From positions 1 through 33,443 of the IMG/VR virus record IMGVR_UViG_3300022847_000015: 33,443 bases of DNA. The stretch is one strand, 5' to 3'. The notes under the pieces were generated by a model. That model saw only the letters and a program-made list of their open reading frames with translations, ran no database searches and was not told the origin of the DNA. This DNA is from a virus. Both the position numbers and the translations under genes were made by a program. Below, piece by piece: positions 1 to 33,443 of this stretch; the stretch's first letter is position 1, and the number at the start of each line of letters is the position of its first letter.

Positions 1-2
1 CG

Positions 3-776
3 GAGAAGCGCGTAGCCATAGAGGGCAAGCACGAAGGGTGGAGCCGACCGTGGATGGAGGATGAAGCGTCGGTAGAGGCTCACGCGGCGCGAGTCCGGGC
101 AAATGTTGAGAAGGCAGAGGCGCAAGGCAGATGGCCCGCCAACGTCCTACTAGACCCCGAAGCCGGGGCGATGCTGGATGCTCAGAGTGGGGAGTTGCAA
201 GCGGGCGCTTACCCAAAGGGGCCACAGGGCGGAGGCGGCAGCGTCTATGGCAACTATCAGGGCTTCAGCAGGGAAGAAAGAACCAACCTCGACGCCGGAG
301 GGGCCAGCAGGTTCTTTTATTGCGCCAAGAGTTCGGCAGCGGAGCGTTCGGCAGGGCTAGGCGGATTTGAGGAGAGGGCACCAACGGGCGCTGACATAGG
401 TGGGGGGAGAGATCGCAGGTCTGGAACCAAGAAAAACCCTCGACCAAGGGAGAGCAGCCCGAAGCGCAACCACCACCCCACCGTCAAGCCAATCAACCTT
501 ATGCGTTACCTAGTCCGCCTAGTCACCCCACCAGACGGCACAGTCCTCGACCCCTTCACAGGATCAGGCACCACCGGGATAGCAGCACACCTTGAAGGCT
601 TCGACTTCATCGGCATTGAGCGTGAGGCCGAGTATGCGGAGATCGCAGAGGCCCGCATCGCCTGGTGGTCACAGCACGAAGGCGACACCACCGAGATTCT
701 GGTCCGGGCAGGACTGGTAGAAAAGGCCGAGACAAAGCACCGCGAGTCCGGGCAGCTTGGATTGGAGATCCTATGA
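3..776 (+). CDS. DNA methyltransferase, beta class, 5' end outside window
   Basis: The frame is open from the window start, so this is the C-terminal 257 residues of a longer gene. The phrase GRWPANV, the phrase RFFYCAK, then NHHPTVKP and LMRYLVRLVTPP followed by the SAM-binding motif DPFTGSGTTG (bases 549-578) and FIGIERE are the usual C-terminal half of phage N4-cytosine or N6-adenine methyltransferases of the beta group. In that group the catalytic (D/S)PPY motif precedes the SAM motif, so it must lie upstream of base 1 and cannot be checked here. Such phage enzymes commonly modify the phage's own DNA against host restriction. The stop overlaps the start of the helicase gene (ATGA at 773-776), so the two are translationally coupled. 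An internal ATG at 54 could be mistaken for the start. The target sequence cannot be read from this part. Confidence 0.88.
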   Translation, partial: EKRVAIEGKHEGWSRPWMEDEASVEAHAARVRANVEKAEAQGRWPANVLLDPEAGAMLDAQSGELQAGAYPKGPQGGGGSVYGNYQGFSREERTNLDAGGASRFFYCAKSSAAERSAGLGGFEERAPTGADIGGGRDRRSGTKKNPRPRESSPKRNHHPTVKPINLMRYLVRLVTPPDGTVLDPFTGSGTTGIAAHLEGFDFIGIEREAEYAEIAEARIAWWSQHEGDTTEILVRAGLVEKAETKHRESGQLGLEIL

Positions 777-2098
777 GCGCCGAGCCCGTAATCAACCTCG
801 AGATGGAGCGCCAAGTTCTCGGAAGCCTCATGCTCACCACGGCAGACCGGGTACAGGCGGTCCAAGTCGACTCCGGGCTAAAAGCCGACCACCTGTATTT
901 CGACAAGCACCGGGCCATACTGGGAGCAGTCCTGGCCGTAGCAGGCGAGGCAGACCCGGACGAGCTGCTAGTTGCCGCTGAATTGGAGAGGCGCGACGGG
1001 CTGAAAGAGGCCGGGGGAGCGAACTATCTGAGCGAACTGTGCGCCACGGTTTCAGCGCCGGCCAACGTCCTGCACCACACCCGCGTTGTCATCGAGGCGG
1101 CAGAGTGGCGATCGAAGCAGACGGCGGCAGGACTGATAGCCGAAGCCGTGGAGGGTCGGGACCGGGCAAAACTAGGCGAAGCTGAAGCCCTGCTCACCAA
1201 AGAGATCGTCCATGCCGCCAGCACCTACAACCCGGCAGCACTTCAGGCAGTAGCTCAGAAGCTCCTAACCCACGAAGGCGCGGAGACCTTCCCCTGGCCG
1301 CTCGGGAAGCTGAATGAGCTGACTGACGGCGGGATGCGCCGGGGCGAGTTCATAGTTCTAGGCGGGCACACCTCTCACGGCAAGTCAGTCCTGCTAGACC
1401 AGACCTTGAACGGGATGACTTCGCTCGGGAAGCAATGCCACCTTTACATCAATGAGACAACGATCGAAGAGCGGGTTGCCCGATCTTTGGCCCGGGCAAC
1501 GGGGATCCCCTACTCGAAGATCATCCGAAACCGACTGAGCAGCGAAGAGCGCGAGACTCTGACCCGGGCAGCACCTAAAGCCCTGGCATTCGGCATTACC
1601 AATTGCGCGGGATGGGATGCCGAACAGATCGGCCACCACATCCGACGCAATAGGTGGGATGTGGCAGCCGTGGACATTCTTCACTTGATCCCGCACGAGG
1701 AAACGAAAGACCTCGAGCAGATCGCCGGCACGTTCGCCCGGGTAGCCCAGCAAGCAGATTGCGCGATCCTGGCAACGGTTCACCTAAACCGCAACCGGAT
1801 CAAGACCGCGAAGGTTCCACGGCCTACCAATGCCGACATCAAGGGCGCGAGCGCATTCGAGCAGAACGCCAACACGGTCTGTTTCGTATGGCGAGAGCAA
1901 AATGCGACCGGGATTCCGCAGCCTCATGGAGTCGTCTACTTCACAAAGGTCAGAAACGGCAGGCTAGGCGAGACATGGGTTGACCTTAACGGGGAGCGAT
2001 ACCGATTCGAGAGCAACTACCGGGGCAACGACGGAGACCCCGGGCCAGCGCCACCAGTCGAAGAGCCCGCGCCGGTCGAGGATCCGCTGCCCTTCTGA
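773..2098 (+). CDS. dnaB: Replicative DNA helicase, DnaB family
   Basis: A 441-residue helicase that would unwind the fork ahead of the phage or host polymerase. The N-terminal DnaB domain begins MSAEPVINLEMERQVLGSLM. The RecA-like domain has Walker A GGHTSHGKS (G197 to S205, with K204 as the ATP-binding lysine), Walker B-like VAAVDILHL (D301), a sensor-type ATVHLNR and a DnaB motif 4 region (NADIKGASAFEQNANTVCFV). The start at 773 is chosen because it forms the ATGA overlap with the methyltransferase and begins the conserved domain; the frame is open further upstream to 665. The protein ends in an acidic/proline tail terminating VEDPLPF, which resembles the C-terminal tip of single-stranded DNA-binding proteins and is not a usual DnaB ending. 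No separate loader or primase is visible nearby. Confidence 0.92.
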   Translation: MSAEPVINLEMERQVLGSLMLTTADRVQAVQVDSGLKADHLYFDKHRAILGAVLAVAGEADPDELLVAAELERRDGLKEAGGANYLSELCATVSAPANVLHHTRVVIEAAEWRSKQTAAGLIAEAVEGRDRAKLGEAEALLTKEIVHAASTYNPAALQAVAQKLLTHEGAETFPWPLGKLNELTDGGMRRGEFIVLGGHTSHGKSVLLDQTLNGMTSLGKQCHLYINETTIEERVARSLARATGIPYSKIIRNRLSSEERETLTRAAPKALAFGITNCAGWDAEQIGHHIRRNRWDVAAVDILHLIPHEETKDLEQIAGTFARVAQQADCAILATVHLNRNRIKTAKVPRPTNADIKGASAFEQNANTVCFVWREQNATGIPQPHGVVYFTKVRNGRLGETWVDLNGERYRFESNYRGNDGDPGPAPPVEEPAPVEDPLPF

Positions 2099-2230
2099 CC
2101 CGCATCGTGACTCCCGTTGTAAGCGATCCTAAGCGCCGCGCCGGGCAAAGTGACCTAGACCACTAGACCGGGCCAAAACATCCGGGAGATAGCAGCGTAG
2201 GGCGATCAGTAAGCAACTAACAGGGTCGGC

Positions 2231-2250
2231 TCGGTATCTTGACTAGCGTC
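2231..2250 (+). repeat. Direct repeat copy 1, core TTGACTAGCG
   Basis: The sequence TCGGTATCTTGACTAGCGTC matches 2297-2316 at 18 of 20 positions, with C/T differences at positions 8 and 20. The two copies start 66 bp apart. They could be binding sites for a small DNA-binding protein such as the adjacent AlpA-like protein; that is inference. Confidence 0.75.
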
Positions 2251-2258
2251 GTGCACGA
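2249..2258. promoter_or_regulatory. 10-bp perfect palindrome TCGTGCACGA
   Basis: A perfect palindrome abutting the first direct repeat. It could be part of an operator or may be chance; there is only one copy and no functional evidence. Confidence 0.35.
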
Positions 2259-2260
2259 GA

Positions 2261-2290
2261 AGAGCCGGCCCCGCAATGGCGACCGGCTCT
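2261..2290. terminator. Hairpin between convergent genes, possible bidirectional terminator
   Basis: AGAGCCGG (2261-2268) and CCGGCTCT (2283-2290) form a perfect 8-bp stem with a 14-nt loop. It lies between the converging helicase and HTH genes, the expected place for a terminator serving both strands. There is no clear T-run on either side, which is common in high-GC actinobacterial DNA, so termination is inferred from position and structure. Confidence 0.5.
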
Positions 2291-2296
2291 GACCCT

Positions 2297-2316
2297 TCGG
2301 TATTTTGACTAGCGTT
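2297..2316 (+). repeat. Direct repeat copy 2, core TTGACTAGCG
   Basis: The sequence TCGGTATTTTGACTAGCGTT is the second copy of the 20-bp repeat at 2231-2250. It overlaps the stop codon of the minus-strand HTH gene (2315-2317). A related TTGATTAGCG is found at 28643-28652, directly before the start of the Cro-like gene. Confidence 0.75.
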
Positions 2317-2527
2317 AACCGCGCCCGCGTCCCTCTCCAGGTTCGGCACGATCCCGGATGTTCGCCGCCTTCCATTGCCGGACGGCCTCGAGATCCCATA
2401 CTCTGCCTGCCCTAAGCTCTGCGATCGGCTTAGGGAAACCGGGCCTCGAGATCCAGTAGTAAACCGTCGAGCGGTCGACCTTGAATGATGCGGCCAGGTC
2501 TCCAGCTTGAGCAATCCGGGCGGCCAT
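2315..2527 (-). CDS. Small helix-turn-helix protein, AlpA/excisionase-like
   Basis: A 70-residue protein whose segment AASFKVDRSTVYYWISR followed by PGFPKPI and RVWDLEAVRQWKAA is the typical layout of MerR-like AlpA/excisionase proteins, in which a winged helix-turn-helix binds DNA. Proteins of this type act as excisionases or as small transcription regulators. No integrase is present in the window, so a regulatory role seems more likely. It is the last gene of the minus-strand operon; its start ATG overlaps the stop of the 42-aa membrane peptide (TAATG), so it probably relies on translational coupling rather than its own ribosome binding site. The C-terminus is rich in Gly, Arg and Glu and looks disordered. 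Confidence 0.75.
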   Translation of the reverse strand: MAARIAQAGDLAASFKVDRSTVYYWISRPGFPKPIAELRAGRVWDLEAVRQWKAANIRDRAEPGEGRGRG

Positions 2528-2655
2528 TAGAGACCGTCCGGGCCAGACAGACCATGCAGCTCATGGCCTGTCAGTCCCCAGGAGACCAGGACCGCAATAG
2601 CAGCGACGAGCAGGACCGCCGAACAGATCCCATAGAACAGCCCCGGGCGGGTCAT
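2527..2655 (-). CDS. 42-aa single-span membrane peptide
   Basis: This short reading frame begins MTRPGLFYGICSAVLL and continues with VAAIAVLVSWGL, a clear single transmembrane helix of about 20 residues, followed by a short polar tail. Its ATG overlaps the stop of the upstream 99-aa gene (ATGA) and its TAA overlaps the ATG of the HTH gene (TAATG), exactly the coupling used throughout this genome. That fit on both sides is the main evidence that it is translated. The function is unknown; small phage membrane peptides can be holin-like, superinfection-exclusion or lysis-timing proteins, but nothing here distinguishes these. Confidence 0.65.
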   Translation of the reverse strand: MTRPGLFYGICSAVLLVAAIAVLVSWGLTGHELHGLSGPDGL

Positions 2656-2951
2656 GTCAGATCCCCAGGCGAGAAGCTGAAGAGCTTGACTCCAGGAGTG
2701 AGCGGCTTCGGCGCCGGCTCGTCTTCTGTATGGAATCCGACGACCTGCTCAGTGCAACCCGCAGCCCGCAGGATGTCAGCAGTATCGGGACCGCCGCCGT
2801 AGCTTTCCATACCACGGGCCAATTCTTCGGCTACATCGTCTAACGCTTGGTCGACCCGCATTCTCTCGGTCGCGTTGTAACAGTCCCGGCCCTTCCATTG
2901 TGCGCGAACTTCGGCAATAGCTTCCGCCGCTGCTTCTGTGAATGAATGCAT
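2652..2951 (-). CDS. Hypothetical 99-aa protein
   Basis: I do not recognise this family. The start is placed at the ATG beginning MHSFTEAAAEAIAEV because GAAGGGA lies 8 nt upstream on the minus strand; the frame also has an ATG nine codons earlier without such a site. The N-terminal half (FTEAAAEAIAEVRAQWKG, then RMRVDQALDDVAEELARGM) is predicted to be two amphipathic helices with a charged surface. The C-terminal third is proline-rich and probably flexible. It is separated from the upstream 182-aa gene by about 77 bp but belongs to the same minus-strand operon, and overlaps the next gene by 4 bp. Confidence 0.65.
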   Translation of the reverse strand: MHSFTEAAAEAIAEVRAQWKGRDCYNATERMRVDQALDDVAEELARGMESYGGGPDTADILRAAGCTEQVVGFHTEDEPAPKPLTPGVKLFSFSPGDLT

Positions 2952-3028
2952 GATGGATCCCTTCTGGTTGATTGGCAATACAGGCCCGGGGCCGGAAACG
3001 ATCCGACCTACGCCATCCCGGGCAGCAG

Positions 3029-3577
3029 CTAGAACGGCAAAGGATCGCTCCGGGTCTCGACCGCTGACCCTTCCGGCTCACAGTCCAGGACCGGGCCGGC
3101 AGCGTCGGATAGTTCATCCTCAAAGGCGAAGACAAACGATTGAAGAGCCGAGACCGTATTAGCGACCTTCTGCCATTCCCGGGCCAATTCTTCAGACCGG
3201 GCAGTATCCGGGCCAACGTGGTCGGCCAATTCCATTAGCGCATCATGCGTGCTCGGATTGAAGTAGCGGCTCGACCAATTGGCAGCGGGCCAGAACGCCT
3301 TGCCGATCAAGACACAATTAGCCCGCCGACCCTTAGGGATCGTTTGCCAGAAGCGTTTATCCGCCACGATCTCGCCGGGTTGCTGGAATGCGGCCAGGGC
3401 AGTATTAGCCGGGGTCAACGATCCGCCATGAAGAGCCCGGGCGACGAGAAACCGGGCGATACCCTGCCCGGTCTCAAGTGCCTCGAGGCTCGCCGTTAGC
3501 AGCTCGTTCAACATCTCACGCCGGGCAGCTTTATCGGCATCGGATAGGAATGAAGCTTCCGACCTATAGCGGGCCAT
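3029..3577 (-). CDS. Possible ArdC-like ssDNA-binding protein with SSB-type tail
   Basis: A 182-residue protein. Residues about 35-95 (LETGQGIARFLVARAL, then LTPANTALAAFQQPGEI and FWQTIPKGRRANCVLIG) loosely follow the N-terminal ArdC pattern in which an S/T..N..L...Q.P segment is followed by W...GR..KG. ArdC N-domains bind single-stranded DNA in antirestriction proteins. The match is weak and the metalloprotease part of ArdC is absent. The last residues are DPLPF, like the C-terminal tip by which SSB recruits partners, and the same five residues end the phage helicase. An ssDNA-related role is therefore plausible but inferred. The start ATG overlaps the stop of the upstream 48-aa gene (TGATG). 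Confidence 0.6.
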   Translation of the reverse strand: MARYRSEASFLSDADKAARREMLNELLTASLEALETGQGIARFLVARALHGGSLTPANTALAAFQQPGEIVADKRFWQTIPKGRRANCVLIGKAFWPAANWSSRYFNPSTHDALMELADHVGPDTARSEELAREWQKVANTVSALQSFVFAFEDELSDAAGPVLDCEPEGSAVETRSDPLPF

Positions 3578-3723
3578 CAGGATTGCTCGCCTTCAGATAG
3601 CCGCCATCCGACACCGTGGCAATGGATCGCCCCGATACGCCGGGCCAATTTGTCAATGGTGGCGAACCGGGAAGGATGCGTCCCATAGCCTAGATGGCAG
3701 ATAATGTTGCCTTGCGATGCCAT
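3577..3723 (-). CDS. 48-aa Cys/His-rich peptide
   Basis: A small reading frame beginning MASQGNIICHLGYG and containing C9, H10, H16 and the cluster H34-C35-H36 (AIHCHGVGW). The spacing could bind a metal ion but matches no zinc-finger pattern I know. Support for it being real comes from its exact fit in the operon: its ATG overlaps the TGA of the upstream gene and its TGA overlaps the ATG of the downstream gene (TGATG in both cases). No function can be assigned. Confidence 0.6.
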   Translation of the reverse strand: MASQGNIICHLGYGTHPSRFATIDKLARRIGAIHCHGVGWRLSEGEQS

Positions 3724-4031
3724 CAGGCTTCATCCTCGTAGTGATCTACGATCTCTGACCAGTTGACAGAGTGCAGAGCCGAGTTGACCAGATCAGCGGC
3801 CAAACCGCTATCAGGCATCGGGAACAGATCGCCAGACCAGACCAGATCCTTCAGAGCTTCCGCCCGGTCGTATCCGGCGGAATGAGCGAGGACTGTCTCC
3901 CTCGCATAGTCCTGTGATCCGGGCTCGTTGTCGATCCATAGGTTGACAGCCCAGGTTTCATAATTCGTCCACCCGTTATAGCCGGGCGAGTTCTGAGCTT
4001 CGATTACTGTCTTGTATTCTTCCGAGTTCAT
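3723..4031 (-). CDS. GWTNYETW-type phage/plasmid protein (DUF7249-like)
   Basis: A 102-residue acidic protein whose hallmark is YNGWTNYETWAVNLWIDNE near residues 18-36, a signature found in many phage and plasmid proteins of unknown function. It is the first gene of the minus-strand operon. On the minus strand GGAGA lies about 9 nt before the ATG, and the promoter at 4108-4137 gives a leader of roughly 70 nt. The family often appears in accessory or antirestriction regions, which would fit its ArdC-like neighbour; that link is inference. Confidence 0.75.
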   Translation of the reverse strand: MNSEEYKTVIEAQNSPGYNGWTNYETWAVNLWIDNEPGSQDYARETVLAHSAGYDRAEALKDLVWSGDLFPMPDSGLAADLVNSALHSVNWSEIVDHYEDEA

Positions 4032-4107
4032 TCGATCATTCTCCGATCGTTTGGCAGATCCCGGGACGCTAGAACGTTGCCGGGATCACTTTGTCATTAC
4101 GCCATGA

Positions 4108-4137
4108 TGTATAGCACAGACCGTAGGAAAGTGTCAA
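4108..4137 (-). promoter_or_regulatory. Sigma70-type promoter for the minus-strand operon
   Basis: Read on the minus strand, TTGACA (bases 4137-4132) is followed by an 18-bp spacer and TATACA (4113-4108). An overlapping CTATAC gives a 17-bp spacer. This is the best promoter in the window and lies about 75 bp upstream of the first minus-strand gene (ATG at 4031). The strength and isolation suggest early, host-polymerase-driven expression of the 4031-2315 operon. Confidence 0.8.
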
Positions 4138-4269
4138 GGGCTCGGCGGAAACATTGCGGACCATTCACCAAACCGGGCAGCAATCACAGACTGACAGGCG
4201 ATTAGAAGGCAGTGAGCGGCGATCTGGGCCACGTTCACGCCGGGCAGGACCGCTAGCATTCCCTCAGAT

Positions 4270-4782: not shown

Positions 4783-4891
4783 AACGCGCGCCCGCGATAT
4801 AACAGCGGTTTGGACCGGGCAGTAAGGCCATAGGACCGATAAGGGAAGATGCGGCGAGACTTGGCAGGCAGTACGGGCGGAGTGGGATTAG

Positions 4892-4915
4892 GGATTAGTG
4901 GGAGGATTAGTGGGA
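4892..4915 (+). repeat. Tandem 12-bp repeat GGATTAGTGGGA x2
   Basis: Two perfect adjacent copies of GGATTAGTGGGA, preceded by a partial copy (AGTGGGATTA at 4881-4890) and followed by two more matching bases. The strand is strongly G-rich. It lies 110 bp after the terS-like stop codon. Confidence 0.8.
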
Positions 4916-5219
4916 GGCAACATGATTATGCGCGGGCGATCGCGGCACCAGGCAGGCCGGCGACCAGGGCAGGGCGACGAGCTGGCATCGGTAGCAGCAC
5001 AGGTAGCAGCTAGGCCAGAAGGTAAGGCACAGAGCCGAGTTAGCTTAGTCACAGACAAGCGTATGAGTGCGCAGAGCTACGATTCTCGGACCGCATATCC
5101 CTTACCTAGCCTCAAGAAATTAGCGCCGGGACCGGGCCACCCCTTCAGGAAAAACCGGGTCCCATCTCGTAAGTATCCTACCCCCGCCACCCATATAACT
5201 GCGCTAATTCCCCCTAATC

Positions 5220-5282
5220 GTATATACCTTTCAGACTAATCAGCCTGTATATACCCCCACCGTCCGGTCCAGCGTATATACC
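5220..5282. repeat. Three GTATATAC palindromic boxes at 27-bp period (iteron-like)
   Basis: GTATATACC occurs at 5220-5228, 5247-5255 and 5274-5282, so the starts are exactly 27 bp apart. The first eight bases are a perfect palindrome. The 18 bases between boxes are unrelated, so this is a protein-binding array rather than a simple tandem duplication. A degenerate fourth box (CATATAACT) sits in register near 5192. The last box ends 6 bp before the ATG of the first ribbon-helix-helix gene, making autoregulation by that protein the simplest reading; a partition-type centromere, origin or packaging site are alternatives. Confidence 0.8.
5275..5280 (+). promoter_or_regulatory. Possible -10 (TATATA) for a leaderless transcript, inside box 3
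   Basis: TATATA ends 8 nt before the ATG at 5289 and there is no Shine-Dalgarno sequence in between (CCTCCCCT). In actinobacteria a TANNNT hexamer at this distance often starts a leaderless mRNA at or next to the start codon. If so, a protein bound to the third GTATATAC box would directly block the promoter. No -35 is recognisable. Confidence 0.4.
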
Positions 5283-5288
5283 TCCCCT

Positions 5289-5932: not shown

Positions 5933-5961
5933 CGGCCTGATCGTTGATTAGTATTCAGGCG

Positions 5962-7788
5962 ATGGTTCCGTCAGAGGCGATAGCAGCGGTTCAGACCCGG
6001 ATCTTGGAGGACACCCCCTACTGGGCCGAGAAGTTCGCCAAGATCGTTGACAAGCAGGGCAAGCGGATCCCCTTCGTGATGAATGAGGGCCAGTTGGAGT
6101 TTGACGCGGCGCTTGAGGCGCAGCGAGCCGCCGGGCAGCCGATGAGGATTATCGCTCTGAAGGCGCGGCAGGTCGGGATCTCGACGGTTTCACAGGCCAA
6201 GTTGATCCACCGCGCGACCCAGCGGGAGAACTACAACTGTGTAACCGTGGCCCACGACCGGGGAACCGGGCAAAAGCTCTACCGCATGGGCGAAACGATG
6301 TGGGCCAATCTGCCAGAGGACAAGGGACTGGGGATCAAGCCCGACGCGGCGAACTTCCGCCGGGGCCAGTTCATGCGATTCGGCGGGGCGAGCCGGGAGG
6401 ATTGGGCCAGGGGCAAGGTATTCCCTGATTCCGAGTATCTGGTTGACACCGCCGGCGAGTTTCAGGCCGGGCGAGGTGGCACCTACCGGGGAATGCACCT
6501 CTCGGAGCTTGCCTTCTGGGCGCAGATCGGTTTCAAGATGACGGCGCTGATGAGTGCCGTACCCGACGATTCGGAATCTCTGGTCATGGTGGAGTCGACC
6601 CCGAACGGGCATAACGAGTTCAAGGATCTCTGGGATGACGCGATGGAGGGCCGGTCTGACTTTCACCCCTTCTTCTGGCCGTGGTGGAAGCACCTCGAGT
6701 ACCAGCTCAAGTTCGCCAACGAGACCGAGAAAGAGCGTTTCGTGGTCGGGGATGGTCCCTACGGGGAGGAAGAGCCCGATCTGATCCGGGACTACGGGCT
6801 GACACTCGAGCAGCTTTATTGGAGGCGGAAGACGGTTGCCAACAAGTGCGGCGGCGATATGCGCGTCTTTCACCAGGAGTACCCCGCCAGCCCCGAGCAG
6901 TCGTTTCTCTCGTCCGGGCAAAAGACCTTCGACCCCTACCGGGTAGCCGGTCTGATCCGGGAAGTCGAACAGACCGACCCCCGCCACACCTCCCCCGACA
7001 ACCCCGGGCCGGTCTATGGAGAGTTCACGATCGGGGCCACCAAGCAGGAAGAAGGCCGAACCGGGGATCTGACGATTCCGAGCAAAGCGATCTGGACACC
7101 CTGGAGCGAGGGGCCGAAGAATCAGTCGTGGAGGATGTGGCCGGACTGGGAAGAGAAGCCGGGAAGCGAATACATCATGGGCGTAGACGTATCCGGGGGC
7201 CAGATGGAATCCACAGACGAGCCGGACTACCAGACGGTCCAGGTCATAGACCACGCGACAAAACAGCAGGTAGCCGAGTACCAGAGCAGATGCGAGCCTG
7301 ACGAGCTGGCACTTCAGATCCTTCTCGCCGCGATCTTCTTCCGCGATCCGGTTGTGGCAATCGAGCGAACGGGCGGCTGGGGATACCCGGTCCTGCGGAA
7401 GTTGCTCTACGAGTACCACTACTGGAACCTCTACAAGTCACGCCGGGTCGGAGGCCAAACCGAGAAGTCCGACAAGAAGCTGGGATGGGACACAAACACC
7501 CGGACCAAGCCGATCCTCATTTCCGGCTTTCAGGTCCGGCTCAGAGAAGACGACTACGGCGGAATCAAGTCACGGCGCTTGGCTTCAGAGACCAATACCT
7601 ATGTCCGGGACGAGAAGGGCCGGTCCAACGCGGCACCCAAAGCCTTTGACGACCTTCTCATGGCATACATGATCGGGCAGTATGTGGCGAGCGAGAGGCC
7701 GCTACTGGTAGATGATGACTCAGGACCGGCTCAGTCTTTCCGGGCGCAGAGAAGCGGGCTTTCAGCGTATGACCCCCGCATTGATTGA
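5962..7788 (+). CDS. terL: Terminase large subunit
   Basis: A 608-residue packaging ATPase and nuclease that docks on the portal and cuts the DNA concatemer. The ATPase domain has the variant Walker A KARQVGIST (residues 67-75), Walker B with catalytic Glu in MHLSELAFW (E182) and the coupling motif VMVESTPNG. The nuclease domain has acidic residues in GVDVSGG (D409), VVAIERTGG (E468) and AFDDLLMAYMIG (D563/D564). All elements are present, so it looks functional. The ATG at 5962 is preferred; a TTG at 5944 is in frame six codons earlier, and neither has a clear Shine-Dalgarno. The stop lies in the first of two hairpins that precede the head genes. Confidence 0.93.
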   Translation: MVPSEAIAAVQTRILEDTPYWAEKFAKIVDKQGKRIPFVMNEGQLEFDAALEAQRAAGQPMRIIALKARQVGISTVSQAKLIHRATQRENYNCVTVAHDRGTGQKLYRMGETMWANLPEDKGLGIKPDAANFRRGQFMRFGGASREDWARGKVFPDSEYLVDTAGEFQAGRGGTYRGMHLSELAFWAQIGFKMTALMSAVPDDSESLVMVESTPNGHNEFKDLWDDAMEGRSDFHPFFWPWWKHLEYQLKFANETEKERFVVGDGPYGEEEPDLIRDYGLTLEQLYWRRKTVANKCGGDMRVFHQEYPASPEQSFLSSGQKTFDPYRVAGLIREVEQTDPRHTSPDNPGPVYGEFTIGATKQEEGRTGDLTIPSKAIWTPWSEGPKNQSWRMWPDWEEKPGSEYIMGVDVSGGQMESTDEPDYQTVQVIDHATKQQVAEYQSRCEPDELALQILLAAIFFRDPVVAIERTGGWGYPVLRKLLYEYHYWNLYKSRRVGGQTEKSDKKLGWDTNTRTKPILISGFQVRLREDDYGGIKSRRLASETNTYVRDEKGRSNAAPKAFDDLLMAYMIGQYVASERPLLVDDDSGPAQSFRAQRSGLSAYDPRID

Positions 7789-7851: not shown

Positions 7852-7856
7852 CGTTC

Positions 7857-8108: not shown

Positions 8109-8515
8109 GGCGAGATTGGGCAGTAATTCCGGGCGAGACCGGGGGAGTACCGGGCGACCACGAGGCGATGAGCCGGGCAACCGCCCTTGCCAACCGATTT
8201 GACGGGGCGCTTATCGAGAAGCTTCACGATGCCCTTACCGCGATGGATTTCGTCGGAGGCCAGCTTTCGGTCCAGGCTTACCGGGTCAAGTACGACGCAG
8301 ACGGCGAGTTGATCCCGGGCGAGAATCACAAAGACACCCCGGGCCAATGGCACACCGAAGCATTCGTCTTCAGCTACGAGACCCGGCCATTCGAGGTCAA
8401 GGAGCTGACCCCGACCGATGCGCCACTCGAGCAGATCGACACGAAGGCCCGGCCAGTAGTCCAGATCCCGATTGAGGGACCGGAGCCGGCGGAAGCTGAG
8501 GAAGTAGCCGCCTAG
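8105..8515 (+). CDS. Hypothetical 136-aa protein upstream of portal
   Basis: Not recognised. It has a mixed alpha/beta composition with an acidic C-terminal tail (EGPEPAEAEEVAA). The start is set by the ATGA overlap with the zinc-finger-like gene and the end by a TAGTG overlap with the portal gene, so it is part of a coupled terL-to-portal block. A head-assembly accessory role is possible from position only. Confidence 0.65.
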   Translation: MRRDWAVIPGETGGVPGDHEAMSRATALANRFDGALIEKLHDALTAMDFVGGQLSVQAYRVKYDADGELIPGENHKDTPGQWHTEAFVFSYETRPFEVKELTPTDAPLEQIDTKARPVVQIPIEGPEPAEAEEVAA

Positions 8516-23400: not shown

Positions 23401-24703
23401 CGGGATCTCACAGGCAGCCGACTTCCAGAACCCGCCACAGATGGGAGCAAAGATTCAAGGCAACGGTCTGATCGGCGGCGCGGTCGAGGGACACCGGATA
23501 TTCCGCGAAGGCAAGTGGGGCCAGGCTCTTCACAAAGTCAACCCGATCCAAGCGTGGTTCAAGCTCTCGCAGATCCCGGAGAACGCAAGCCGCCGGGCAC
23601 TCGCCTACAAGATCCTGAAGAGCAACGAAATCAAGCGTATGAATGTGAACCTCAAGAAGACCGACGCGGCAATCAACCGGATAACGCAGGGAATGAAGCT
23701 CGACCCGAACGGTCAGATCCGGGCAGCCATGAAAGACACGAAGCAGCTCGAGGACATGTCGCAGGGGCTCGCAGACTTTCTTGGCGATTACCAGACCTTC
23801 ACGGCAATAGAGCGGTCAATCCTGAAGCGGTCGATTCCCTTCTACTCATGGATGAGGTTCGCTACCAAGTTCGCCCTGTTCACCCTGCCGTCCAAGCATC
23901 CGATCGCAGCCGGGCTCACCTACCAGTTGGGTCGACTTGAATCAGACCAGCTCAGGGACGTTCTAGGCGATGCGATGGGATGGGCGCTTGGCAAGACCTT
24001 TCTCGGGGATCCGCAGGATCCGAATACCCCGTTTATTGACATGTACCGAGGCAACCCCCTTCTCTCCGGCCTGGTCGAGTTTGAGGACACCCGCGACCTG
24101 ATGGGATTCGTCCCGCCCTACATTGCCCTGATTGGCAACCAGATATGGGGCCGCAACTACTTCACCCGGTCTGATCTGACAGTCGACGGCGAAACGATGC
24201 CGCGCAGGTTCTCTGCTCGGGGTCTCAGCAACGAACTTCAGATCGGGCTAAACCAATGGCTCAGTACCTTCACCCCGTACCGAGTCGCAGGAGAGATAGC
24301 AGCCGGCGGAACCCCGATGACTGACGATGCCTTCCCGGTCAACCTGCCGTTCGGTCTGGGAGGCCCGGAGCCGAAGAGGTACGCGCCGGGCTCAGGCGAG
24401 GAAACGAAGGCCCGGGAAGAGGGAGAGTTCAGGCAGGACGGCGGGGCAGGCGGGGTACTTCTCAAACGTATGGCACCGTTCTTCCCTCAGTCCAGCAGCC
24501 GACTCAGACAGCAGGGCAACTACATCAATGCTGAAACGAAGCGGGAGCAAGAGGCAATCCGGGAATACCAGCAGCGGACGCTAGGTGGGGGAGATGGAGC
24601 ATCCGGGGCAGCAAGCGTGATGGATCAGATACGGGACCGTATGGAATCAGCAAGCCCGGCGCAGGACGTTATGGACAAGATCAAGGAAAGGCTCGGCCAG
24701 TAA
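20492..24703 (+). CDS. Giant internal virion / DNA-ejection protein, 1403 aa
   Basis: The largest gene in the window. The first 55 residues form a basic low-complexity module (MPSRASKEAK, then TTASGKANIGGGLAGTKGSG) that recurs at the start of the 657-aa lysin encoded at 24957. Next comes an Ala/Lys/Arg-rich helical region (about 160-330), then long mixed helical domains. Around residues 885-930 a glycine-rich hydrophobic stretch (GYLLAGNTGWLGFQTISTAA, then TPASWVLAQIMW) could insert into a membrane, and residues about 1120-1150 (WMRFATKFALFTL) are also hydrophobic. This is the profile of ejection proteins that leave the head and form a conduit across the envelope. No enzymatic motif was seen. 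The C-terminus is disordered and charged. Confidence 0.7.
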   Translation: MPSRASKEAKRGPSSTRPKKRRPKPRPSGTTASGKANIGGGLAGTKGSGTAKVTRPKSSGSNGRPASPTSTIDPALLANATTGLTVTPEQRAQVSSRLGQTAGDVTWADVAELTGVPGAARALGDLSVLSGPISPLADGPTKQTTIPGVSDSVDLLTTLTAAGLLVKAGKGGKGVKDAEKAAQTAQKESQAAKVARGGQADVKGGRVKRSNSELDRLEKATVKRRIKANRAKMTKTARAKDVAKGAKTRAQAKLYDEALKITAGTGTAGAGALSAREIAKQSGSKGAAARALAKEGAKRTATAPVRAGAALNRAALSPAALPVTGVVPAEEKARNLASLPFQLGAATVENPGAVAQASLQSGRDMLLGAPAAVYEMATNPSGALEMMKQDYVSRYGPLLEGDFKYFRDQVAENGGLTPYGLDALIVAPPAGRVVGAAGRSGALGKGLQTFMTKERPGLFREAGSVAREQALSKNAVGVGAQRTMDVIRARKTRKGAEKGNAFLDAANQPGVVAPIRANATQARNVAARKARTRAINLAQQGRVMRTVALLMSRLSQDQSKAVKWALALGIRTADQAKEQLPARIAAIKAARAAETDYGPLDNIPEIEQVIAQADEIFTPEFGQTIDQFRRAEKRLAVGDPVKSAARRDPALDIEQAANRRVAQQAEHLGIERLDGESNADYIARVRQTAKEAGLAEAGYFPSELSRRRRFSQMATGGTRHSERTKAYTGALFREGIENNDPSVLLRGFQRNVKRRNSWEMVSEIYERNSLPWSRDRTGQGLSQAEILKEANKRGLDESSFVLANPGLLRRAGNVDMEPGKAQSGSNDFGNAYMDDLSNAIKTSTEAAETAGFDDLKGWYAVPTKVLDELESSMHVGKVGRGADIAMSKMSGYLLAGNTGWLGFQTISTAAQAAIGGVTPASWVLAQIMWHRMRREAKGTGARTGLLRRRVATSSREMLGSEDFDRFNAYAGISQAADFQNPPQMGAKIQGNGLIGGAVEGHRIFREGKWGQALHKVNPIQAWFKLSQIPENASRRALAYKILKSNEIKRMNVNLKKTDAAINRITQGMKLDPNGQIRAAMKDTKQLEDMSQGLADFLGDYQTFTAIERSILKRSIPFYSWMRFATKFALFTLPSKHPIAAGLTYQLGRLESDQLRDVLGDAMGWALGKTFLGDPQDPNTPFIDMYRGNPLLSGLVEFEDTRDLMGFVPPYIALIGNQIWGRNYFTRSDLTVDGETMPRRFSARGLSNELQIGLNQWLSTFTPYRVAGEIAAGGTPMTDDAFPVNLPFGLGGPEPKRYAPGSGEETKAREEGEFRQDGGAGGVLLKRMAPFFPQSSSRLRQQGNYINAETKREQEAIREYQQRTLGGGDGASGAASVMDQIRDRMESASPAQDVMDKIKERLGQ
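20571..20650 (+). repeat. 80-bp direct repeat, copy 1 (N-terminal tag)
   Basis: These 80 bases match 25051-25130 at 76 positions. They encode the GTTASGKANxGGGLAGTKGSGTAKV part of the shared N-terminal module. The near-identity at third codon positions indicates recent duplication or ongoing gene conversion between two genes 4.5 kb apart. Confidence 0.85.
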
Positions 24704-27987: not shown

Positions 27988-28017
27988 ACCGGGCATAACA
28001 ACCAACAAGGAGATTCA

Positions 28018-28179
28018 ATGCAGTCCGAATACAAGAAAACCATCGTCGCAGTCATCGGCGCAGTCATTTCGATTCTCGCAATCTACGGCGTGGACATCGA
28101 CCCCGAACTGTCCGTGGCTGTCACCACGATCCTCACGGCAGTCGCCGTCTGGTGGTTCAAGAACGAGGGGCCGGCTTAG
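28018..28179 (+). CDS. Holin-like 53-aa membrane protein
   Basis: A short gene with an ideal ribosome binding site (AAGGAGA, 4 nt before ATG). The protein has two transmembrane helices, TIVAVIGAVISILAIYG and LSVAVTTILTAVAVWWF, joined by the short loop VDIDPE, and charged ends (MQSEYKK and KNEGPA). Two-span proteins of this size next to endolysins are typical holins of actinobacterial phages, which form membrane lesions and set lysis time. It closes the rightward late operon and is followed by a hairpin. Confidence 0.75.
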   Translation: MQSEYKKTIVAVIGAVISILAIYGVDIDPELSVAVTTILTAVAVWWFKNEGPA

Positions 28180-28192
28180 TCTGACCCGCTCC

Positions 28193-28210
28193 CCCCGGTT
28201 CACGCCGGGG
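28193..28210. terminator. Terminator hairpin between convergent holin and repressor genes
   Basis: CCCCGG (28193-28198) and CCGGGG (28205-28210) form a perfect 6-bp GC stem with the loop TTCACG. It lies in the 38-bp gap between the stop codons of the holin-like gene (+) and the HTH regulator (-), the expected place for a bidirectional terminator. Confidence 0.65.
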
Positions 28211-28217
28211 TATCGCC

Positions 28218-28526
28218 TTACCTGCCCTCGAAGCGTTCCAGGTTCTTCAGGGCCACCGCAAGACCGACCTCTTCTGGATCCAGTTGCGTCCGGGCCAGAA
28301 CTAATCGGTATTCCGCAAAGACTGACGGCTCTTCCTTCAGCGAGAACGCCATCCGTTCCAGAGCCTTCATCGTCGGCCTGATCTTCCCGGTGTTGTATTG
28401 GCTCAGGGTGCCGATAGACCCCCAGCCATCGAAGTCATCTTGAAGGTGCCGGGCCAGATCGCGCATTGACCAGCCCCTCTCTTCTAGTAGCCGGGCGAGC
28501 GTTTCAGCGAACGGTCGGTTGTTCAT
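28218..28526 (-). CDS. XRE-family helix-turn-helix regulator (repressor-like)
   Basis: A 102-residue protein. Residues about 8-55 (TLARLLEERGWSMRDLARHL, then GSIGTLSQYNTGKIRPTM) follow the XRE/Cro five-helix DNA-binding pattern, with GTLSQYNTGK as the recognition region. The remaining 45 residues are helical and may dimerise. AGGAGG lies 7 nt before the ATG on the minus strand. It is divergent from a second HTH gene, an arrangement typical of phage repressor/antirepressor switches. Whether it maintains lysogeny is unknown because no integrase or partition gene is in the window. Confidence 0.75.
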   Translation of the reverse strand: MNNRPFAETLARLLEERGWSMRDLARHLQDDFDGWGSIGTLSQYNTGKIRPTMKALERMAFSLKEEPSVFAEYRLVLARTQLDPEEVGLAVALKNLERFEGR

Positions 28527-28652
28527 CGGTGCCTCCTATCGGGTTGCTCATTGCCTACTGAGCAACGAACAGGATGACGATCATTGCCGATTATGCGGAG
28601 AAACGAAACCCCATGACCATGATCTTGCGATTCTGTGCTAGGTTGATTAGCG
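28527..28652. promoter_or_regulatory. Divergent control region of the HTH switch
   Basis: This 126-bp region separates the two divergent HTH genes. It contains a perfect inverted repeat (28543-28566), an 8-mer TCATTGCC repeated at 28548-28555 and 28581-28588 (33 bp apart), a CATAAT on the minus strand (28595-28590) that could be a -10 for the repressor, and TAGGTT (28639-28644) with an extended TG 8 nt before the + start. It most likely holds both promoters and their operators. Confidence 0.6.
28543..28566. promoter_or_regulatory. Perfect inverted repeat, candidate operator
   Basis: GTTGCTCA (28543-28550), an 8-bp centre, and TGAGCAAC (28559-28566) form a 24-bp symmetric site. Such two-half-site palindromes are typical of XRE-family dimers. 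It lies 17 bp upstream of the repressor ATG, overlapping its leader, so binding would repress that gene. Confidence 0.65.
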
Positions 28653-28883
28653 ATGACCAATCAGACGACAGAGCAGCATCGACTAGCCGGGGCAATGAAC
28701 AAGCGCGGCCTGACCCATAGGCGTGTCGCAGTGTTGCTTGACAAGCCAGAAGGCACGATTAGCAACTGGGCTCGGGGCCACGTTCCCCGGCCCGACAGCC
28801 AGCAGAAGCTTGTCGAGGTCTTGAATGACGCCGGGCAAGATCAGAATCTCCCCGAGCTGAAGAAGGAAGACCTGTGGAACTGA
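28653..28883 (+). CDS. Small HTH protein (Cro-like) opposite the repressor
   Basis: A 76-residue XRE-type protein: LAGAMNKRGLTHRRVAVLL followed by DKPEGTISNWARGHVPRP gives the helix-turn-helix, and QQKLVEVLNDAG a final helix. Its size and divergent placement are those of Cro or of an early-operon regulator. There is no Shine-Dalgarno; TTGATTAGCG lies directly against the ATG and a TAGGTT hexamer 8 nt upstream may start a leaderless mRNA. Its stop overlaps the recombination gene by 10 bp, so the pair is co-transcribed. Confidence 0.7.
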   Translation: MTNQTTEQHRLAGAMNKRGLTHRRVAVLLDKPEGTISNWARGHVPRPDSQQKLVEVLNDAGQDQNLPELKKEDLWN

Positions 28884-30118
28884 CCCCCTCGCAGGCTGGA
28901 GAGATCGACCTTCTGATTGACGAGCATGGAGAAGGCAAGGTCGAACCGGGCGAGAACGGCACCATGACCTTCCGCGCTTTGGACCGGGCATGGTCAATCG
29001 GCAGGCGTGGCGCAGTAACCGAACTTGACTTGTCAGATCAGGGAGCAAGCGAGAGCTTGGGAGGCCCGGATCAGGCAATGGACTCCGGGGCCGACAAGGC
29101 TTCGGAGTCCGATACTTCTGACGGCTCGCAGTCTGACGGATTAGAGACCGACAGCTCGACCGATCAGGAGTCCGGCGCATCTCGAGCATCCCAGCCGCCG
29201 GACGAGCAAGCGACCCCGGATTCATCTCACTCTTCCGGGTCCGGGGCGCTTGTTCCAATCGCGCCTTCTGAGCAGGGCAACGACCGATCCGGGGTAGTTG
29301 GACCCGATCCGTCCGAACTAGCCGCAGACGACCGCTCAGACGCATACCGGGCTATGTCGAAGGCAGACGAGCGACAGGTTGCGATGGAGCTTCAGGGCAA
29401 CGCACCGAAAGCAGCGGTCTACGCCTTCCCCCAGGGTGGGCAGCAGGTAGTCGGACTGAGCTGGAAGGGAGTCCGGGAAGTGGTCCGCACCTTCAATGCC
29501 CGGGGTCTCGGTCAGATCAAGGTCGACGGATCCAAGCCACCGCTCTTTGAGGATGTAATGGTCCGGGCAGAGATCGGGGTCAATGGCGACGGACCAATGT
29601 ACGGCGAAGTACCGGGCATCCGGGTCACGGTCTATGCGACTGACGACCAGCACGGCGGGGGAAACTGGGGGACCGCGACCGCTACCTGCGATCAGGTCAA
29701 CAAGAAGAAGAAGACCGAAGACGGTCACTTCACTTGGCAGCCAGACACCTTTGCGGCGACAAAGGCTCTGAGCAAGGCACAGAGGAACGCGCTCGAGCCG
29801 CTGATCCCGCTCGAGTTGGTCGAAGAGTTGAAGCAGCTCTACATGGGCCGGGGTCAAGTTGAATACATCCCCGGTTCAGGCCGGGAAACAACCCCTGACC
29901 TACCGCCGGCTCTCACAGACGACCGGGCAGAGAAGCAGGCGGCGCAGTGTCGGGAGCTTTACAGCGAGTGGAGCAAGCTGGGCGGCAAGAAGGAGATGCC
30001 GCCCGCACTCTTCAACCGCAGCATGGAAGCGGTCCAGCACTCGCACGACCGGCTTGACGACTTCATAGGCCACCTGGAATCGGAGCTTGCCAAGGCGAAG
30101 GGCAATGGCGATGCCTAA
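28874..30118 (+). CDS. Putative ssDNA-annealing recombination protein with disordered N-terminus
   Basis: A 414-residue protein starting with GTG. Residues about 50-145 are a Ser/Asp/Glu-rich disordered region. The C-terminal domain (about 160-340) contains AMELQGNAPKAAVYAFPQGG, GVREVVRTFNARGLGQIKV and FAATKALSKAQRNALEPLIP. That last SKAQRNAL..LIP pattern occurs in phage recombination proteins of the single-strand annealing type. The next gene is a RecB-like nuclease, and annealing protein plus exonuclease is the standard phage recombination pair. I cannot place it in a named family (RecT, Erf, Sak) with confidence. It could instead be another replication accessory. Confidence 0.55.
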   Translation: MELTPSQAGEIDLLIDEHGEGKVEPGENGTMTFRALDRAWSIGRRGAVTELDLSDQGASESLGGPDQAMDSGADKASESDTSDGSQSDGLETDSSTDQESGASRASQPPDEQATPDSSHSSGSGALVPIAPSEQGNDRSGVVGPDPSELAADDRSDAYRAMSKADERQVAMELQGNAPKAAVYAFPQGGQQVVGLSWKGVREVVRTFNARGLGQIKVDGSKPPLFEDVMVRAEIGVNGDGPMYGEVPGIRVTVYATDDQHGGGNWGTATATCDQVNKKKKTEDGHFTWQPDTFAATKALSKAQRNALEPLIPLELVEELKQLYMGRGQVEYIPGSGRETTPDLPPALTDDRAEKQAAQCRELYSEWSKLGGKKEMPPALFNRSMEAVQHSHDRLDDFIGHLESELAKAKGNGDA

Positions 30119-31256
30119 ACAAGCCCCGGTGTCAGAGCCGCTATTGCTGGATCAGCGCGTAGCAGGACAGACCGCACTCTCGAAGTTCGATAAGTGCCCG
30201 CGTGATTACTTCATGTACCGGAGCATGGGAGGCGGAGTCCAGTCTCACGCTATGGCCCGGGGAATCGCTTGGCATGGAGGGATTGACCGGCTCACCGAAT
30301 ACATGATTGAGAACGGGGAGCCGATGGTCTCCGGTGAGATTGCCCGGGACTTCGTTGAGGGGTACGCCGACGACAACCCCGAGCTAATCATGCCCGAGAT
30401 GGAACGGGACGCGCTCAGGCTTATGGCGTGGAATTGGGGGGAGGCAACAGTCCTAGACCTGGAGAACATTCTGGGCCATGAGGTATCGGTCTCGATGACC
30501 TTCGGTGACTGGTTGCTCCGGTGCCGAATCGACCTCGTATACGGCTACCCGGACCACATTGCGATCGTGGACTACAAGACCAGTCTCGCCATGCCCCGGG
30601 ATGAAGAGGTGCAGCGAGACTTCCAGGGCAAGTTCTATTCGCTCGCCTGCCTTGACGGAACGGTCGACGGATCCCCGGTCTCACTTGGAGCCGGGATAAA
30701 CGAAACGAACTTCTCCCTCGTCTTCCCCCGCTACCGGGACAAAGAACACGGGCACCTGAAGACCCGCACCGCCGCCTTCAATCGGTCAGACCTAAACGAC
30801 TTCAAGATGTCGCTGACCTCTCAGATCGCCCAGCTCGAGCTTGCTTACGAAACGCAGGAGTGGCCGGCGACTCCCGGGAATCATTGCTCACTCTGTACCG
30901 CACAGGCCCGGTGCCCCATACCTGCCGACCTACGAGACATGCCAGAGGTCACTTCAGTAGCGCAGGCCCAGGAGCTTGCCGAGATTTGGGACCGCATGAA
31001 TCGTGAGAAGACCCGGCTCCAAAAGGGACTGAAGGGCTGGGTCTCTGAGAACGGCCCGCTCCACTTCGGCAAAGACCTCGCGCTCGATCTGACCACCACG
31101 GAAGCAACGTCCCTGAAGGACCGGGACGCGCTGAGAAGGGGAGTTCGCAGCGCGGTTGAGTTCGGAGAGCCCTTCGATATTGACGATCACTTTCAGACGA
31201 AGCACAGCACACGGTTCGGTAAGCGAAAACTCACGGAAGAAGAGAGAGAGCAATGA
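30111..31256 (+). CDS. RecB/Cas4-like PD-(D/E)XK nuclease with Fe-S cysteines
   Basis: A 381-residue nuclease. The catalytic core has CRIDLVYG (D141), IAIVDYKTS (D154, K156) and a QxxxY-type motif (VQRDFQGKFYSLAC), the order of RecB-family PD-(D/E)XK enzymes. C29 near the start (FDKCPRDYF) plus C259, C262 and C268 (HCSLCTAQARCPI) match the four-cysteine Fe-S arrangement of Cas4 and AddB. It probably resects dsDNA ends for the annealing protein encoded upstream. The ATG at 30111 is preferred because GAAGGG lies 8 nt upstream; ATG at 30105 is also possible. The two genes overlap by 8 bp. Confidence 0.82.
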   Translation: MPKQAPVSEPLLLDQRVAGQTALSKFDKCPRDYFMYRSMGGGVQSHAMARGIAWHGGIDRLTEYMIENGEPMVSGEIARDFVEGYADDNPELIMPEMERDALRLMAWNWGEATVLDLENILGHEVSVSMTFGDWLLRCRIDLVYGYPDHIAIVDYKTSLAMPRDEEVQRDFQGKFYSLACLDGTVDGSPVSLGAGINETNFSLVFPRYRDKEHGHLKTRTAAFNRSDLNDFKMSLTSQIAQLELAYETQEWPATPGNHCSLCTAQARCPIPADLRDMPEVTSVAQAQELAEIWDRMNREKTRLQKGLKGWVSENGPLHFGKDLALDLTTTEATSLKDRDALRRGVRSAVEFGEPFDIDDHFQTKHSTRFGKRKLTEEEREQ

Positions 31257-31716: not shown

Positions 31717-31895
31717 CCCCCCACGACAAGATCAGACACGCGATCATTGCCGAAGGTAACGGCGGGCTTCATACCGACGAGATTGTCTACGCGACCGGGC
31801 TTCCGATAACGAAGGTCCGACTGACACTCGCAGCGATGCTGGCGGCAAGCAGCGTGATTGAGTGTGAACCGGGTTGCTGGATGGTGGCGACCTGA
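31713..31895 (+). CDS. 60-aa winged-helix-like protein
   Basis: The sequence HDKIRHAIIAEGNGGLHTDE followed by IVYATGLPITKVRLTLAAML and SSVIECEPGCWMVAT has the helix, helix-turn-helix and beta-wing order of a minimal winged-helix domain. It may bind DNA as a small early regulator. The start lies in an ATGA overlap and the stop in a TGATG overlap. Confidence 0.6.
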   Translation: MTPHDKIRHAIIAEGNGGLHTDEIVYATGLPITKVRLTLAAMLAASSVIECEPGCWMVAT

Positions 31896-32137
31896 TGCCC
31901 CGCTCTTACGACGACCGCATGAGTGAGCCCCCCGAGCCCCGGTTTGACGAGAACGACCGGGCCGAGCTGAAGGGTCTCTACGCCGAAGCAGAAGAGGTTT
32001 GCGACATGATGAGCGGTCTGCCGACGCAAGCCGCCGGCTTCGATTTCACCGTGGAGATCCGGGCTGCCGTGAAGGGTCTCGAAGACTTGTGTGCCGCGCT
32101 AGAGAACACAGCGGGCGACAACGGGATCCGACTGTGA
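31895..32137 (+). CDS. Hypothetical 80-aa acidic protein
   Basis: Begins [20 protein letters not shown], then a helical charged segment ([19 protein letters not shown]) and a C-terminal helix ([18 protein letters not shown]). Not recognised. The start follows the TGATG overlap; an in-frame ATG seven codons earlier would overlap the previous gene. It ends in a GTGA overlap. Confidence 0.55.
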
Positions 32138-32286
32138 AGCCGGGCATGAACCTCCACGAACACTGCCGTCGCAACGCCGCCAACGCGCTACTCGACATCG
32201 CCCGCGAACGGCACCCGGATCTCGCCTTCCAATCTCCATCCACCAGGGGGCAGACGCTCCCACTAGCAATAAGGGGAGTTACATGA
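32134..32286 (+). CDS. Hypothetical 50-aa protein
   Basis: Starts with GTG in a GTGA overlap ([20 protein letters not shown]) and ends in an ATGA overlap. It has His/Cys/Arg-rich early residues and a short helix ([14 protein letters not shown]). An ATG at 32146 is an alternative start. The main support is its fit between two coupled genes. Confidence 0.5.
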
Positions 32287-32990
32287 GCATCGAAATCAAG
32301 TCCCGCTGGGACGGCAAGGTGCTCTACACCGCCAAGACCGCGCAGGATGTACGAGGGGCCGTGAAGGAGGCAGTCAAGAGAGGCGCAAACCTCAGAGGCG
32401 CGAACCTCGGAGACGCGGACCTCAGAGGCGCGAACCTCAGAGGCGCAAACCTCGGAGGCGCGTACCTCAGAGGCGCGAACCTCAGAGGCGCGAACCTCAG
32501 AGGCGCGAACCTCAGAGGCGCGAACCTCGGAGGCGCGGACCTCAGAGGCGCAAACCTCGGAGGCGCGGACCTCAGAGGCGCAAACCTCGGAGGCGCGAAC
32601 CTCGGAGGCGCGAAAGGGGTGGCACCCGAGCGCCACAACGACCTGCTCATTCTCAAGGATCAGGTCGGCAAGGTCCGCGCCTACAAGCTCGTCAACGCCG
32701 ACCTCAAGTCGCCGACCTCACAAGCGCAGCTCACCTACGAGATCGGCGCGACCCTTGAAGCGACGGGCGACACAGACGAGGACGAGCACTGCGCAGCCGG
32801 AATCAATCTGGCCACCCTGCCCTGGTGTCTCAGGGAGTGGCGAGCGGGCATGAGGATTCTGCTGTGTGAGTTTACGGCCGCGGACATCGCTGCGATCCCG
32901 CACACCTCCGATGGCAAGTTCCGGGTCCACAAAGCCAAGGTGATCCGCGAGGTGGATCTCGATGCGATCTTCGCAAAGGAGCAGACATGA
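32283..32990 (+). CDS. Pentapeptide-repeat protein with DUF5758-like C-terminal domain
   Basis: A 235-residue protein preceded by AAGGGGAG. Residues about 34-110 are 15 near-perfect pentapeptides of the form A(N/D)L(R/G)G, which fold as a right-handed square beta-helix that mimics DNA in gyrase-protecting proteins. The C-terminal half ([18 protein letters not shown], then [17 protein letters not shown] and [20 protein letters not shown]) matches a domain often fused to pentapeptides in phage proteins. The repeat part is short compared with gyrase-binding MfpA or Qnr, so that role is uncertain. Codons within repeats are almost identical, showing recent expansion. Confidence 0.8.
32388..32612 (+). 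repeat. 15-bp tandem repeat array encoding pentapeptides
   Basis: About 15 units of 15 bp built on GGCGCGAACCTCAGA with few changes (A/G at the Arg/Gly codon, GCG/GCA, AAC/GAC). The units are in frame with the protein. Copy number could change by slippage or recombination without breaking the frame. Confidence 0.85.
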
Positions 32991-33442
32991 CCACAGCAGA
33001 ACAGAGAGACACCGCATTGGCCCAGGCCAACCGGGTCAGAGCAAGCCACTACCAGATCCGCAACGAGGTAAAGGCGGGCGACCTGACCGTCGCCGAAGTC
33101 CTCTACCTCCACAGCGAAGAGGTCGAGACCATGGCCATCGGCAAGCTCATCCGAGCCCAGGACAGGTGGGGCAAGCAGCGGGCATCCCGGTTGCTGAACC
33201 TGCTGAACATCTCCGACAACCGGCGGATCGGGCTGCTGACTGACCGGCAAGTGAGCCTGCTGGCTGGGCTGACGGCGACGATCAAGCGGAGTGAGCTTGA
33301 GGGCTGGGAGAGGGTCAGCGGCGACTGCCCGGTTCACGCTGCCCAGCTCGCAGAGGTAGGAGAGGGCCTGCTAGACGGCTTCCTCGCCATGTGTGAGGCC
33401 GGGCAGAGAGTGATTGACAACGAGAGGAGCAGCGATGAGTGA
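32987..33442 (+). CDS. mIHF-like nucleoid/integration host factor protein
   Basis: A 151-residue protein starting in an ATGA overlap with AAGGAG upstream. Residues about 9-95 ([66 protein letters not shown]) follow the actinobacterial integration host factor (mIHF) pattern: a long N-terminal helix then a helix-two-turns-helix DNA-binding domain. In hosts, mIHF binds DNA and supports lambda-type integration of mycobacteriophage L5. A phage-borne copy could shape phage DNA for replication, packaging or integration. The last 55 residues are extra relative to host mIHF. Confidence 0.72.
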
Positions 33443-33443
33443 C
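33435..33443 (+). CDS. Start of the next gene, cut by window end
   Basis: ATG AGT GAC at the window end begins a new frame that overlaps the mIHF-like stop by 8 bp, with GAGAGGAG upstream. Only three codons are visible, so nothing can be said of the product. Confidence 0.35.

Follow-up and report, generated by a model that had tools for sequence, protein, structure and literature searches.

The DNA analysed here, referred to below as the window, is a linear virus record of 33,443 bases from the IMG/VR database (IMGVR_UViG_3300022847_000015). It has no end repeats and is a genome fragment whose left-end gene is cut. Its gene set includes an SU10-type capsid and portal, a terminase, a DnaB helicase, a methylase fragment, and a lectin-like protein. 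Because repressor- and excisionase-like genes are present in the window and an integrase in the relative G006, the gene contents indicate a temperate phage group of the SU10 type. In this window the hexamer CCGGGC shows a large excess on one strand, independent of coding, a pattern that suggests selection at the DNA level. The hexamer is probably read as a DNA signal in its own right, possibly by an enzyme acting on broken DNA ends.

Excess and strand polarity of CCGGGC

Exact counting gave 136 copies of CCGGGC on the plus strand and 36 on the minus strand (GCCCGG), eight of the latter lying within GCCCGGGC, and 53 and 8 copies, respectively, of the heptamer CCGGGCA; the hand counts of the first-pass annotation agree with these values to within one. 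CCGGGC is the most strand-skewed hexamer of the whole window, and most genes carry it. The pentamer CCGGG is found 274 times on the plus strand and 128 times on the minus strand, with 99 and 90 expected from an order-2 model. With C and G in equal number (three of each), the word cannot owe its polarity to mononucleotide GC skew. Strand skew alone proves nothing, because nearly all genes are on one strand and codon bias skews such phages; in T7, used as a control, GCTGGT reaches 44/2. That the signal is real thus rests on its excess over codon shuffles and on the result from the minus-strand genes, not on the skew.

An order-3 Markov model predicts 79.7 copies on the plus strand and 33.5 on the minus strand. 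It accounts for the minus-strand count and not for that of the plus strand, so that the excess proposed earlier persists under this model (136 against 79.7). Models of orders 4 and 5 swallow the word by construction, and the CCGGG pentamer carries much of it. For a codon-based null model, synonymous codons were shuffled among 34 plus-strand genes (300 shuffles). These genes contain 107 copies of CCGGGC against 31.0 ± 4.8 in the shuffles (z about 15; shuffle maximum 42), an observed/expected ratio (O/E) of about 3.5. No other hexamer exceeds the shuffles to the same extent, the runners-up being its own overlapping words. As had been noticed by eye, the motif falls in all three codon frames, and it is in excess in each of them (38/30/39 observed, 14.4/4.3/11.7 expected). 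Gene starts were picked by codon scores, and shifted starts should not alter the counts materially.

In five open reading frames (ORFs) of the minus strand, the plus strand carries 14 copies against 3.6 expected, while the coding strand carries 3 against 2.6. The three of these genes with family support (excisionase-like, DUF7249, and the helix-turn-helix (HTH) repressor) hold 7 plus and 1 minus copies, with 1.3 and 0.9 expected. Intergenic DNA has 11 on the plus strand and 1 on the minus strand (expected 1.5 and 1.7). Over the three stretches not coding on the plus strand that the first-pass annotation had singled out, the plus orientation prevails by the claimed 25 to 4 (Table 1). Therefore the signal belongs to the DNA strand, not to the message. 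The shuffles preserve codon usage and not codon-pair bias; the intergenic excess is unaffected by the latter, and the excess in minus-strand genes would require a pair bias of the opposite sense.

Hardly any credence can be given to CCGGGC being a by-product of codon or amino-acid bias in one-sided genes combined with nearest-neighbour composition. Nearly all genes do lie on the plus strand, GCAGC-type skews of that origin exist in the window, and T7 has strong skews of this kind. However, no shuffle approached the observed count, all phases are enriched, and the plus orientation persists in minus-strand genes and intergenic DNA. Codon usage and dinucleotides are refuted as an explanation at that level, and the earlier statement that codon bias alone is insufficient is upheld by the codon shuffles, by the minus-strand genes, and by intergenic DNA, each of them an independent test.

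In its fuller form the motif reads RNNCCGGGCRR and occurs 60 times on the plus strand and 6 times on the minus strand, and 49 times within plus-strand genes against 7.9 expected. The flanks at positions −3, −2, and +6 to +8 are purine-rich and T-poor beyond the level of the codon shuffles. With A, G, or T as the sixth base, the CCGGG words display a weaker excess (O/E 1.7-2.2). The reverse word GCCCGG is mildly enriched, with no avoidance (32 against 19 expected, or 25 against 17 leaving out the palindrome GCCCGGGC).

The first-pass annotation had likened the word to Chi, to FtsK-orienting polar sequences (KOPS), and to architecture-imparting sequences (AIMS), an analogy that we consider reasonable. 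A prophage might carry the strand-biased word of its host in order to match the polarity of the chromosome arm at its integration site. Almost every bacterial genome contains AIMS, which are octamers with a strand bias (PMC5993296). A word of this type would be a possible adaptation of a temperate phage to host chromosome polarity. The family is temperate, as judged from the genes named above, and the extended motif has the one-strand polarity anticipated for such a signal. The wrong orientation is, however, not avoided, one site per 250 bases is far denser than known KOPS, and relatives of the same temperate group have no comparable word. Of the KOPS analogy, then, the polarity stands and the avoidance of the reverse word does not, and we consider this explanation unlikely.

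Distribution among related and other viral contigs

The contig L016 is 99.6% identical to the window over approximately 10.8 kb and shares its bias (CCGGGC 56/11). Searches with the capsid and the helicase alone revealed no closer relatives beyond L016. In the relatives found through the terminase (L017, L018, L020-L040; 43-57% identity) and through the capsid (L173-L187; 33-51% identity), CCGGGC is near or below expectation, and their strongest hexamers are well under the z of the window. The enrichment is lineage-specific. In codon-aligned terminase and portal sequences, the hexamer is kept in 10 of 226 aligned cells, compared with 85 of 751 for control GC-rich hexamers, while the amino acids beneath the motifs are 58% conserved versus 49% elsewhere. 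Because the residues are conserved and the hexamer is not, it was mostly through synonymous changes that the lineage built its words.

A comparison with 101 other viral loci, a non-random sample in which some approach the window on a smaller base, gave 7.7 as the best comparable hexamer score. Two 11-kb thirds of the window scored 8.0 and 8.8 (a conservative count); the middle 11-kb third is below the top of the hexamer-score list. The rarity of such an enrichment is clear mainly for the window as a whole. When 2.9 million viral contigs were scanned for three clustered extended motifs, which gave at least 120 matches, only L016 was comparable among the matches listed and long enough to score; L128, L064, and L086, also among the matches listed, contain mainly local motif clusters. 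A genome scan with the terminase gave one contig of a metagenome-assembled genome (L040), which is doubtful as host evidence, and a few genomes of its phylum, in which the pattern was counted, were uninformative as to the host of this phage. In the literature we found no paper joining CCGGGC with phage, motif, and strand.

These comparisons bear on whether a context-dependent mutation or repair bias, e.g., a very-short-patch type of repair that makes CCGGG and acts asymmetrically on the replicating strands, might have generated the word. The spread over the contig, over all codon phases, and over noncoding DNA would be in keeping with it, and confinement to one lineage would be expected of a responsible host enzyme. 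On the other hand, the one-mismatch neighbours are close to expectation (CCGGCC 20 against 21, CCGGAC 21 against 20, CCGAGC 28 against 23, CTGGGC 15 against 11). Exceptions are CCGTGC, of which both orientations are depleted, and the remaining CCGGG words; no specific neighbour is otherwise drained. Many different hexamers occupy the motif sites in the aligned relatives, and so the sites did not arise by a single directed change. We regard such a bias as a rather improbable origin.

Two differences between L016 and the window concern gene content. L016 has an extra ORF of approximately 530 bases (about 1105-1655, against 2092-2115 of the window) that is absent from the window and, by eye, looks like a putative GIY-YIG-type nuclease. 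It contains just one CCGGGC, as might be expected of a recent arrival. At 11703-11793 of the window, inside the lectin-domain protein, L016 diverges abruptly after 99.6% identity, a break like that of a swapped receptor-binding region.

Other features of the window

The last gene, which encodes an integration host factor (IHF) of actinobacterial type, is the sole clue to the host and points in the direction of the Actinobacteria. In the relative G008 this family is matched weakly. A search of cultured phages with the IHF protein yielded no match. A nucleotide search of cultured phages gave no match and no close relative, and Rfam and tRNA scans of the window were empty. The protein encoded directly upstream of the PD-(D/E)XK exonuclease is a possible candidate for a single-strand annealing protein. 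Its predicted structure has a mean predicted local distance difference test score (pLDDT) of 41, which is too low to assign an identity, and loose-threshold family searches with it returned nothing useful.

Table 1. Features of the window; site counts are for CCGGGC on the plus strand and in the reverse orientation.
Feature	Position	Strand	Remarks
Field of 136 plus-strand CCGGGC sites	1..33443	+	Mean spacing 247 bases; first at 95, 704, 748, 873, 910
Minus-strand genes and spacers	2099..4269		19 plus, 4 minus sites
Excisionase-like gene (phrog_66)	2315..2527	−	2 plus, 0 reverse
ORF	2652..2951	−	0 in both orientations
ORF without family match	3029..3577	−	7 plus, 2 reverse
DUF7249 gene	3723..4031	−	2 plus, 1 reverse
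Spacer	4783..5288		2 plus, 0 minus sites
Terminase large subunit	5944..7788	+	Basis of presumed packaging direction; query that yielded relatives
Three-motif cluster (8129, 8150, 8173)	8126..8182	+	All with extended purine flanks
Largest ORF	20492..24703	+	24 plus sites against 5.6 from codon shuffling
Stretch surrounding repressor	27988..28652		4 plus, 0 minus sites
HTH repressor-like gene	28218..28526	−	3 plus, 0 reverse
Protein directly upstream of exonuclease	28874..30118	+	Pair conserved in relative G006
PD-(D/E)XK exonuclease	30144..31256	+	Phage-encoded end-processing enzyme
IHF gene, actinobacterial type	32987..33442	+	At contig end; match just above NCBI cut-off

The pentapeptide-repeat gene (32283-32990) contains an unusually regular 15-base DNA repeat of 15.7 copies, AGAGGCGCGAACCTC, in an array at 32379-32614, and other viral contigs have a 20-mer related to this repeat in 15 stretches. 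DNA tandem repeats were rejected as the source of the CCGGGC field, this array being the only real one. Two large genes of the tail region start near-identically (20492-20649 and 24957-25129; 86 bases at 95%), a duplicated N-terminal segment. Many palindromic hexamers are nearly absent from the window (TCGCGA 1, CCGCGG 1, ACCGGT 1, GGCGCC 2, and CGGCCG 1), and TGCA occurs 24 times against 93 expected, suggesting avoidance of restriction. Other palindromes are frequent (CTCGAG 32 against 15; CCCGGG 53).

Possible functions of the hexamer

Among the functions first suggested for the motif was a primase or lagging-strand signal. More broadly, CCGGGC might be the binding or start site of a strand-specific replication or DNA-organising protein, e.g., a phage or host primase acting on the lagging-strand template, or the IHF-like protein of the phage. 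The window encodes both a DnaB helicase and an actinobacterial IHF, and the purine-rich, T-poor sequence to either side of the word might be part of a single strand that is recognised. The primase sites of T7, the pentanucleotides (G/T)2GTC, are likewise dense and strand-specific in role. Unlike CCGGGC, however, the main T7 site words are neither polar nor strongly enriched (GGGTC 39/55, TGGTC 79/62), which weakens the primase suggestion. Moreover, 136 sites far exceed the needs of Okazaki starts, chromosomal primase words have three bases, and IHF-type proteins bind with little sequence specificity. A role of this kind is therefore improbable. A DNA uptake sequence, also suggested initially, was supported by no test: such sequences would be expected to have 9-12 bases and to be about equally distributed between the strands, whereas CCGGGC has a hexamer core and a 136/36 distribution.

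What fits best is a Chi-like word read by the end-resecting helicase-nuclease of the host, because the hexamer is a DNA-level, one-strand word that is not avoided in reverse and is lineage-specific; we assign this reading a probability of roughly 0.35. Chi words would be anticipated to exceed composition and codon usage, as CCGGGC does in the plus-strand and minus-strand genes alike (107 against 31 and 14 against 3.6). The mild enrichment of the reverse word fits a signal useful to enzymes entering from either end. Across bacteria, Chi words have 5 to 8 bases and are host-specific, and this variation from host to host fits an enrichment confined to one lineage. The putative Chi word of Bacillus, AGCGG, has five bases, a length that makes a density like that of CCGGGC possible, although the sequence differs. 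The putative Chi of Caulobacter, GCGGTGGT, from the AddAB bacteria, is likewise short and polar, but has no sequence in common with CCGGGC (PMC5443536). Coliphages that lack their own recombinase or a RecBCD inhibitor over-represent the host Chi, with median O/E values of 3.1 and 2.5 (PMC3784561), beside which the value found here is 3.5. In Chi-enriched E. coli phages (Rec- lambdoids, P1, and T5) the word is likewise short and non-palindromic, with an O/E of about 3 and selection at the DNA level, and its abundance varies among related phages, as here (PMC3784561). The phage exonuclease gene also counts in favour of a Chi-like word, as does the lack of a match to any RecBCD inhibitor family in the scanned proteins.

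A terminase cut of the concatemer would leave a free double-strand end, which a helicase-nuclease of the host (or, less likely, of the phage) would enter and from which it would run leftwards. The moving enzyme would read CCGGGC on the 3'-ended (plus) strand and then switch from degradation to the production of recombinogenic 3' ends. By this switch, concatemeric DNA not yet packaged would be shielded and its restoration through recombination favoured, and a site approximately every 250 bases would offset the low efficiency with which any single one is recognised. Packaging of λ blocks access to the left end, whereas RecBCD can enter at the right end (PMC2082072). The terminase and structural genes of the window point to the right, so that plus would be the active orientation if packaging, the direction of which is assumed, is λ-like. 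Agreement with the λ geometry would arise by chance with a probability of about one half.

Several points weigh against a Chi-like word. Known Chi words are G-rich, and CCGGGC is not. Many Actinobacteria, the group to which the IHF gene points, use AdnAB, which is not known to be Chi-regulated. The contig is incomplete, and a RecBCD inhibitor could lie in the missing part. The packaging direction on which the geometry depends is an assumption. CCGGGC is a new word, and with 4.1 sites per kb it is about 20-fold denser than Chi in E. coli phages (0.2 per kb; PMC3784561). It is also far more polar than Chi in P1, which is enriched and only weakly polar (31/19), and λ has no Chi.

More tentatively still, CCGGGC may be a new word of Chi type, or of another DNA-tracking enzyme, belonging to an uncultured and possibly actinobacterial host. 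Written every 250 bases or so on the strand that the enzyme reads, it would camouflage the DNA ends of the phage and possibly limit the capture of spacers during CRISPR adaptation. Few bacteria have known words of the kind that guide DNA-processing machines, and such words are difficult to recognise in genome sequences. If the reading is true, a phage that has built up one to this extent, in defiance of its codon usage and also within antisense genes, would point directly to the word and, via the host, to the enzyme. The known Chi-enriched phages, of low density and weak polarity, would then be joined by one with dense sites lying mostly on one strand.

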